Below, piece after piece: positions 1-2,331 of a stretch of 56,440 nt of DNA; the first letter of the stretch is position 1, and every line of letters begins with the position of its first letter. The notes under the pieces are model-generated. The model saw nothing but the letters and a program-made list of their open reading frames with translations, was not told the origin of the DNA and searched no databases. This DNA comes from Campylobacterota bacterium (GTDB lineage: Bacteria; Campylobacterota; Campylobacteria; Campylobacterales; Nitratiruptoraceae). The position numbers and the translations under genes are program-made. Where the stretch lies: contig PUXX01000021.1 in NCBI GenBank assembly GCA_009659895.1, positions 1 through 56,440 of the forward strand, in the 5' to 3' direction.

Positions 1-213
1 GTTTTTGACCCCTTCGATCATCTGCGTAGAGATCTGATCGAGCTTCTCCTGCGCTTCTACGCCGAAGAAGATGATGGAGTTTCTATCCTTAACGTCGAGG
101 CGATTTTTGAGCTCTTCGATCATCTTCGCCTCTTGCTCGTCCACAGGCGCCAAAGGCCTCTCATGCTGCTCCACGATCGCTTGTTCGATCTTCTCTTTCA
201 CTTTTGTCTGCAT
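1..213 (-). CDS. Toxic anion resistance protein TelA family, N-terminus only (truncated by window edge)
   Basis: Minus-strand frame from ATG at 213 reads MQTKVKEKIEQAIVEQHERPLAPVDEQEARMIEELKNRLDVKDRNSIIFFGVEAQEKLDQIS...; TelA-like, and downstream of an XpaC-like gene. Confidence 0.75.
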   Translation of the reverse strand, partial: MQTKVKEKIEQAIVEQHERPLAPVDEQEAKMIEELKNRLDVKDRNSIIFFGVEAQEKLDQISTQMIEGVKN

Positions 214-228
214 ATGCCATCCTTTCTA

Positions 229-1050
229 TTAGTGTTTGATCTGTCTATCGAGAGTCTCCATCTTCACCTCAAAGTCGAAGGTTCCTTTGGATTTTACCTT
301 CTCAAGCTCTTTGGCAAAGCGCTCCTCCACGTCGTCCATTAGATAGAGCAGCGCCTTTTTCTGCCCTTCGTCCAGCGTCTCTTCCACTTTGACGTAGGAG
401 CTTGTCACATCGTAGAGCGAATCGATAAACACCACCAAGAAGCGGCGCAGCTCCCTGACATATTCTGGCTTTCTCTCCAGCTCCGCCACTACCTCTTGAG
501 CCTTCTTCAAGGCTCTCTTGACTCTAGATCGTAACTCCTGATTTCTTATTTTACTCAAGAGATCTTCACTCTTTCTAATCCCCTCTTTAGCACTGGCGAT
601 TGTCTCCAAAGCCACATCGGCACTTATATCGCCTGTATCTGGGATCTTGTCTTTTGATGGATCGAAACCATACCACAAATAGTAGCCCACCAAAGCGATC
701 ACCCCCAAAAACAAAGACTCCACAAAAGAGTACGAACCTAGCACGAAAGAGGAGTAGATCACCGCTCCAGCCAGCGTAAAGGCTCCTATGGTCTTGTAGG
801 GGACTTTGGGGGCTTTGGCCATTGTGGCCTTGTTGTACTCAAACTCCTGCTCAAACCCCTTCTTGCTAAAATACAGAGCAAAAGCATAGAGCAAAAAGGC
901 GATGAAATTGAGCAAAAAAGCTTTGATATCTAGCGTAAAAAGAGCGACAATGACAGAAATAAGAGGTGGAATGATAAAGAGGTAGAGCAAAAAACCTATA
1001 GTCTTGGTAAAGGGTGTGATCTTGGGATCGTATCTGCGTACCTTGCCCAT
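229..1050 (-). CDS. XpaC-like membrane protein (5-bromo-4-chloroindolyl phosphate hydrolysis family)
   Basis: 273-aa ORF with two hydrophobic hairpins followed by a charged helical domain; adjacent to telA, the usual XpaC-TelA pairing. Confidence 0.65.
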   Translation of the reverse strand: MGKVRRYDPKITPFTKTIGFLLYLFIIPPLISVIVALFTLDIKAFLLNFIAFLLYAFALYFSKKGFEQEFEYNKATMAKAPKVPYKTIGAFTLAGAVIYSSFVLGSYSFVESLFLGVIALVGYYLWYGFDPSKDKIPDTGDISADVALETIASAKEGIRKSEDLLSKIRNQELRSRVKRALKKAQEVVAELERKPEYVRELRRFLVVFIDSLYDVTSSYVKVEETLDEGQKKALLYLMDDVEERFAKELEKVKSKGTFDFEVKMETLDRQIKH

Positions 1051-1051
1051 C

Positions 1052-1138
1052 CTAGCTCCTAAAAAGATAGCTCAAAGGATACCAAGAGGCAGCTCCCGCA
1101 CTGAGTATCAAAAAGAAAAAGCCTAAAAATTTTTTCAA
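1052..1138 (-). CDS. Putative 28-aa hydrophobic microprotein (not in supplied ORF track)
   Basis: TTG start overlaps the upstream TGA stop (TTGA), with AGGTGGG upstream; reads (M)KKFLGFFFLILSAGAASWYPLSYLFRS*, stop 1 nt before the xpaC ATG. Confidence 0.5.
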   Translation of the reverse strand: MKKFLGFFFLILSAGAASWYPLSYLFRS

Positions 1139-2331
1139 AAATCTACCCACCTCATCTCTCCTTTTGTCATGACAGCATCGACACGTCCGTGCACTATTGT
1201 ATCTTGGTAAAGTGAATTGATTGTGAGTCTAGCACTCTTATTGGGATCAAAAAGCACTAGATCTGCGACAAATCCCTCTTCGATCTTCCCGGCCCTTTTC
1301 TTGGCAAAACAGCCTGCGTTGGAGGAGGCTAGCTCCACCACTTTTGGAAAGCTCAAAAGATCTGACTTGACAAAGTGTGTATAGAGCAAAGGCAAATAAG
1401 AGGCTATCGCATCCACACCAAAAGCCGCCTCATCGAAGCTAAGATCCTTGCTCACCATCGATTTTGGGGAGTGGAGGGAAGTAAGCAGATCGATACGTCC
1501 ACTCACCAAAGCCTCCAACAGCTCCTTTCGCTCCCCATCATCCCTCAAAGGGGGTGAGAGTTTGGCCCATGTATTGTATCCATCACAGGCTCTATCGCAA
1601 AAGAGGAGATGATGAATACTCACTTGGGCATAGCAGAGTTTTGAGCTAGCGATCAGATCCAAAGCCTTGGCGGTAGAGACGGCGCAAAAGAGGACAGGGA
1701 CGTTGTAGTATTCGCTATATTGGATGATCTTTGCTACTTCAGCATGCTCTTCTAATTTGCTTATACCTCCCAGTCCTAGCTCAAAACTCACCCTCCCATC
1801 ATTCATGACACCCACATCGCGAAAGAGGCTGTTCTTGGGCTCGATGAAGAGGACAATCTGGTGCATCTTCGCATATTCAAAAATCCTAGCTAGCAAATAG
1901 GGGTTGATGTCGCTGGGGACGTAGACGCTCAAAGCACCCTTCTTCAAAAGGATGGAGATTTCGCTGAGGCCCTCATCTTTGAGCCCGTGGATCAAAGGTA
2001 GGATATCGATGGAGGATCGGTGGGACTTGACGAACTCCAAGGAGATCTCGTCGTTGATGGGCGGGTTGGTGTCGGGAAGGAGTCCTATGCTCGTCACCCC
2101 GCCTCTTTGGGCGCTGTTTGAAAGGCGCTCAAGATTGGTGCTGTTGATCCTATCATCCAGCGGGCGCACACCAAGATCGATGAGACCAGGAAGCACATAG
2201 CGCCCAGCGGCGTCCACCACCTCCTCATCATCGAACCCTCTGCCGATCGCCTGGATAAGGCCATCTTTTATGAGAATGTCCCCCTCGTACTCTTTGTCAA
2301 ACGTCACGATCCTCGCGTTCTTAACGACCAT
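1135..2331 (-). CDS. Dihydroorotase-like protein, probably non-catalytic (PyrC'/PyrX type)
   Basis: 398 aa; amidohydrolase fold signatures (PGLIDL..., GGVTS...DTNPP, AGKIEEGFVADLVLFDP) but metal-ligand motifs degenerate. Confidence 0.8.
   Translation of the reverse strand: MVVKNARIVTFDKEYEGDILIKDGLIQAIGRGFDDEEVVDAAGRYVLPGLIDLGVRPLDDRINSTNLERLSNSAQRGGVTSIGLLPDTNPPINDEISLEFVKSHRSSIDILPLIHGLKDEGLSEISILLKKGALSVYVPSDINPYLLARIFEYAKMHQIVLFIEPKNSLFRDVGVMNDGRVSFELGLGGISKLEEHAEVAKIIQYSEYYNVPVLFCAVSTAKALDLIASSKLCYAQVSIHHLLFCDRACDGYNTWAKLSPPLRDDGERKELLEALVSGRIDLLTSLHSPKSMVSKDLSFDEAAFGVDAIASYLPLLYTHFVKSDLLSFPKVVELASSNAGCFAKKRAGKIEEGFVADLVLFDPNKSARLTINSLYQDTIVHGRVDAVMTKGEMRWVDF

Follow-up and report, generated by a model that had tools for sequence, protein, structure and literature searches.

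A conserved 32-residue membrane microprotein encoded directly before xpaC is a candidate XpaC subunit in Campylobacterota and Gammaproteobacteria

The envelope-stress proteins XpaC and TelA have a wide distribution. Here we analysed a stretch of 56,440 nucleotides from a Campylobacterota bacterium (contig PUXX01000021.1, assembly GCA_009659895.1; hereafter 'the window'), in which a short reading frame directly upstream of xpaC encodes a protein that, judged by its conservation and its constant position, is very likely a genuine and overlooked XpaC partner. Our main reading, to which we assign a probability of roughly 0.7, is that the product is a genuine, translationally coupled, single-span XpaC subunit in an envelope-stress module.

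The microprotein gene and its start

The following features of the window are used throughout:

1052 to 1150, minus strand: microprotein coding sequence, GTG start, TAG stop, 32 aa, MGRFLKKFLGFFFLILSAGAASWYPLSYLFRS; frame, start and stop kept in 12 Nitratiruptor loci
1158 to 1163, minus strand: Shine-Dalgarno sequence AAGGAG, 7 nt upstream of the GTG at 1150-1148, seen in the sequence
1136 to 1138, minus strand: TTG, the start proposed by the sequence-only reading, probably Leu5; relatives start further upstream with ATG or GTG
1056 to 1060, minus strand: AGGAG, Shine-Dalgarno sequence for xpaC within the final codons of the microprotein, seen in the sequence
229 to 1050, minus strand: xpaC-like gene, 273 aa, PF10112 (Halogen_Hydrol)
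1 to 213, minus strand: 5' portion of telA (PF05816), truncated at the contig end; contig C75 from this assembly carries the remainder
1135 to 2331, minus strand: DHOase-like gene, NCBIfam PRK08417 metal-dependent hydrolase

The sequence-only reading had proposed a 28-residue ORF starting at TTG 1138. On the sequence, the minus-strand frame from 1138 to 1052 reads as claimed, the TTGA overlap with the end of the DHOase-like gene is present, and the stop lies 1 nt upstream of the xpaC ATG (1050). The proposed start had to be revised. The frame is open upstream past the TTG as far as the GTG at 1150-1148, and the resulting coding sequence overlaps the DHOase-like gene by 16 nt. Relatives carry ATG or GTG at the site of this GTG. 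The residues between the two candidate starts are kept as well (consensus M-G-x-F-x-K-K, with F4 nearly invariant). Because of these relatives' start codons and conserved residues, the microprotein almost certainly starts at GTG 1150 and not at TTG 1138, giving 32 residues instead of 28.

Hydropathy supports one hydrophobic membrane helix, and a single-chain structure prediction gave one helix spanning residues 2-30 (mean pLDDT 90.5). This helix is the most conserved part of the protein, not the C-terminus, where W-Y-P-L varies to A-P-L or is replaced by shorter YALGW...SF forms. As the C-terminal motif is unfixed, the surface facing a partner is not one rigid motif. The window microprotein contains no cysteine that could serve as a lipobox, and none of the curated Pfam and NCBIfam families matched it above cut-off.

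Conservation in Nitratiruptor

We surveyed 22 genomes of the family. An XpaC protein is encoded in 13 of them, all from the window's genus Nitratiruptor, and telA occurs in exactly the same genomes. The region upstream of xpaC was readable in 12 of the 13, the last being interrupted by a contig end. All 12 readable loci carry the microprotein ORF with conserved frame, start and stop, and the stop always lies 1-2 nt before xpaC. Loss of the frame or of the stop position in close relatives, which the sequence-only reading had named as evidence against a real gene, was thus clearly not found. The dN/dS-type comparison it had suggested gave pS 0.73 versus pN 0.18 (Nei-Gojobori proportions, uncorrected; 66 pairs of loci, 28 codons). 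That is, synonymous change is near saturation while amino-acid change is low, indicating that the microprotein is under purifying selection. Among the residues invariant in the Nitratiruptor loci are G10, S17, A18, G19, W23, Y24, P25 and L26. A profile of the microprotein found no match at E<0.01 in family genomes without xpaC. By this conservation, which far exceeds that of a chance ORF, the frame is a gene, and the conserved frame and stop together with the low pN/pS support the earlier proposal of a real, presumably translated, small membrane protein.

Relatives beyond the genus

When the Nitratiruptor profile was run against 397 Campylobacterota genomes, three matches outside the family were obtained at E<1e-4 (G298, G403 and G249). 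Each is located directly upstream of xpaC, and no DHOase-like gene was detected beside any of them. A solitary copy of the microprotein was not found in these 397 genomes at the same threshold. Weaker matches in the phylum (E 1e-3 to 0.1) were taken as chance: there was no xpaC in the stretch and many lay inside longer frames. An example from family f7 is the repeated LLIFIAGIAPWYP stretch, likewise with no xpaC in the DNA examined.

For those Campylobacterota PF10112 genes that score above the curated cut-off, a tiny hydrophobic ORF lies upstream in every locus that was read. Scanning genome contigs with an XpaC alignment yielded 71 loci, mainly from Sulfurovum, Nitratiruptor and Nitratifractor MAGs and Hydrogenimonas, with a few Pseudomonadota records. 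Three were truncated at contig edges; in all 68 readable loci a related single-helix ORF of 22-54 aa is found on the same strand, directly upstream of or overlapping xpaC, an adjacency without exception in this set. At least one profile matches 64 of the 68 at E<=0.05. The remaining four (L127, L128, L134 and L136) are readable members, for example MYKLFGFLLLLYALGWSIWVSW with a GTG start. Elsewhere in the 71 scanned stretches, no profile match was obtained at E<0.05.

In the Gammaproteobacteria (the class of genome G407), PF10112 occurs in 26 of 369 genomes, and the loci that were read carry a short hydrophobic ORF at the same place, for example MPRAITKTIGFVLLFATLGFVSWQALFIVF; the second copy in G587 (L190) diverges too strongly for assignment, and L189 is not included here. 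One relative, 47 aa long, is encoded on the Thiodictyon plasmid pTs417 (L211:2784-2927), where it is recorded solely as hypothetical protein WP_172965400.1. A protein search of plasmids using one gammaproteobacterial microprotein as query returned no match. In the class of G408, similar short ORFs are present at some PF10112 loci, and at many PF10112 proteins (L197-L199, L201-L204, L206-L208 and L210) the scan found no such ORF. At L193:1050-1260 and L196:1050-1260, xpaC is immediately preceded by short ORFs (MPKTFQRIAYIALVVLLIGITSGWLGAV and MRSTGFQKVSYVALVVILLGVSSGWLGGL) that perhaps form a separate branch of the family.

The seeds of the Sulfurovum and gammaproteobacterial profiles were hydrophobic ORFs upstream of xpaC picked by eye, which makes scores within a clade circular, so that only the scores between clades are independent. 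A profile built from gammaproteobacterial sequences only placed the window ORF at the top of 1942 ORFs (E 3.2e-6; runner-up 0.17), and the Sulfurovum-type profile matches it at E 3.5e-11. Relatives of the microprotein precede nearly every readable xpaC in Campylobacterota and Gammaproteobacteria, and essentially every gammaproteobacterial locus sampled has one. The sequence-only reading had suggested looking for conservation in other Campylobacterota; it was found there, and the family reaches further, into the Gammaproteobacteria. Together these proteins, 22-54 aa long, make up a family that lies outside Pfam and NCBIfam models and is mostly passed over by routine annotation.

Gene neighbourhood

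In Nitratiruptor the gene order is DHOase-like gene, microprotein, xpaC, telA, an SPFH/Band-7 gene (PF13421, E 1.2e-86) that also encodes a GYF_2 domain, a zinc-ribbon-like gene (Zn_ribbon_3 match weak and below its cut-off) and a convergent LPG_synthase_TM gene. The interval between the DHOase-like and LPG_synthase_TM genes contains only these five genes, with no PspA among them. In the complete Nitratiruptor genomes G001 and G010 the whole five-gene module is absent and the DHOase-like gene adjoins LPG_synthase_TM. The DHOase-like protein (1135-2331, minus strand) reads PGLIDLGVRPLDD at the position of the His-x-His metal site of active dihydroorotases, and may therefore be non-catalytic.

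Beyond Nitratiruptor, the microprotein has its own Shine-Dalgarno sequence, and no adjacent DHOase-like gene was detected. At L084, L086, L094 and L097 and on plasmid pTs417, microprotein and xpaC occur together with no telA found in the stretch examined. Since the microprotein stays beside xpaC where telA or the DHOase-like gene is absent, XpaC is its steady neighbour; across these loci the microprotein tracks xpaC, not telA or the DHOase-like gene. Of the association with XpaC/TelA suggested earlier, the XpaC part is borne out, whereas TelA, like the DHOase-like gene, is missing at some loci that retain the ORF. At L084, L086 and L094 a protein of 566-567 aa with a lipoprotein-like N-terminus follows xpaC in the place of telA.

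The structural model of XpaC comprises four hydrophobic N-terminal helices (residues 16-38 with a break, 42-74, 85-104 and 109-127), followed by a C-terminal helical bundle. Searching the PDB for this fold produced nothing at E<=0.001, and a sequence search with XpaC gave marginal helical matches only.

Proposed role and alternatives

From these data we infer translation, membrane insertion, contact with XpaC and a role in envelope stress. The microprotein would be a 32-aa single-span inner-membrane protein, the first of the five-gene module, whose translation immediately precedes that of xpaC and is linked to it; the coupling is suggested by the xpaC Shine-Dalgarno sequence in the final codons of the microprotein and by a stop that nearly touches the xpaC start. 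Its single helix would most likely pack on the four hydrophobic helices of XpaC via the small residues G10, S17 and G19, with the W-Y-P-L or related C-terminal motif as a further feature behind this packing. Such a small subunit could stabilise or tune XpaC in an envelope-stress complex.

The same arrangement could be that of a translated leader peptide, in which the act of translation, and not the product, would regulate xpaC by coupling or by arrest of the nascent chain. The stop position 1-2 nt before xpaC in 12/12 Nitratiruptor loci and the Shine-Dalgarno sequence inside the ORF would fit such a leader, and the C-terminal WYP stretch resembles a possible arrest-peptide element. However, the spacing of stop and start differs widely elsewhere, some pairs overlapping and others lying tens of nt apart, the hydrophobic helix is better conserved than the C-terminus, amino acids are conserved and codons are not, and neither an unusual RNA fold (z -0.64 and 0.21) nor an Rfam family was found. 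We therefore regard a pure leader as unlikely, while coupling may well exist in addition to a role of the protein. An RNA leader or riboswitch was rejected for the same lack of a fold signal and an Rfam family. A frameshift programmed to fuse the ORF with xpaC was likewise rejected, since the two frames are offset differently from locus to locus.

Just as improbable, in our estimate, is a genuine small membrane protein belonging to the module whose partner is TelA, the SPFH protein or the lipid bilayer instead of XpaC. The five genes do travel together in most loci, but the microprotein keeps its place next to xpaC at loci where the sequence examined showed no telA, and solitary copies are missing at E<1e-4 from the 397 genomes. 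Several gammaproteobacterial members contain LVSC or LVTC with a short polar tail after it, and LVSC-type sequences could be lipoprotein signals, so that a signal-peptide-like or lipoprotein precursor with a short mature tail as its active part was considered; with tryptophan at the cysteine position in Nitratiruptor and most Campylobacterota, and almost nothing after the helix, this is very improbable. A chance ORF without a product, for which shortness, omission from annotation and the GTG start might speak, is hardly credible given the conservation, the low pN/pS and the cross-phylum profile matches.

We return to the XpaC subunit as the preferred reading. Extending it, we lean towards an obligate, previously unrecognised microprotein subunit of XpaC across at least two phyla, in which case XpaC/TelA envelope-stress complexes would have been both studied and annotated with one component missing. 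A partner that stays with XpaC where telA is missing makes XpaC the choice for co-purification and offers a minimal handle on its function.

Comparison with known systems

The Bacillus subtilis pspA-ydjGHI operon shares with the Nitratiruptor module an SPFH/Band-7 protein, a zinc-ribbon protein and a membrane protein encoded together (PMC8581546; PMC11237479). Its membrane partners are described as anchoring soluble components (PMC8581546; PMC11237479), and PspA belongs to a membrane complex together with the SPFH and partner membrane proteins (PMC8581546). The B. subtilis operon has PspA and YdjH, whereas the window operon has XpaC and TelA instead; the portions of these descriptions available to us mention no counterpart of the microprotein (PMC8581546; PMC11237479). 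In the xpaC-telA operons of Lactococcus and Listeria, XpaC and TelA likewise share an operon and have been linked to envelope stress (PMC3139573; PMC12791056). Overproduction of membrane proteins raises the xpaC-like gene tenfold in L. lactis (PMC3139573), and a Listeria telA-homologue mutant is more sensitive to nisin (PMC12791056). Compared by description only, and in the parts available, these operons come with no mention of an upstream microprotein (PMC3139573; PMC12791056). Targeted text searches of the literature, of partial coverage and hence no proof of novelty, gave no mention of an XpaC microprotein.

The gammaproteobacterial ORFs 5' of xpaC (such as the 47-aa WP_172965400.1) resemble the window ORF in position, in size class and in a basic N-terminus that leads into a G-(hydrophobic)-G helix. 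Unlike the Nitratiruptor proteins, they often have a longer polar tail, with Cys-Gln or Trp-Gln versus Trp-Tyr-Pro, and they are either unannotated or recorded only as hypothetical proteins.

CydX and KdpF are operon-encoded single-span microprotein subunits of about 30 aa, with one membrane helix, encoded beside their membrane partner. The window microprotein is like them in size, single helix and gene position, a likeness of kind, and its proposed partner would be XpaC.
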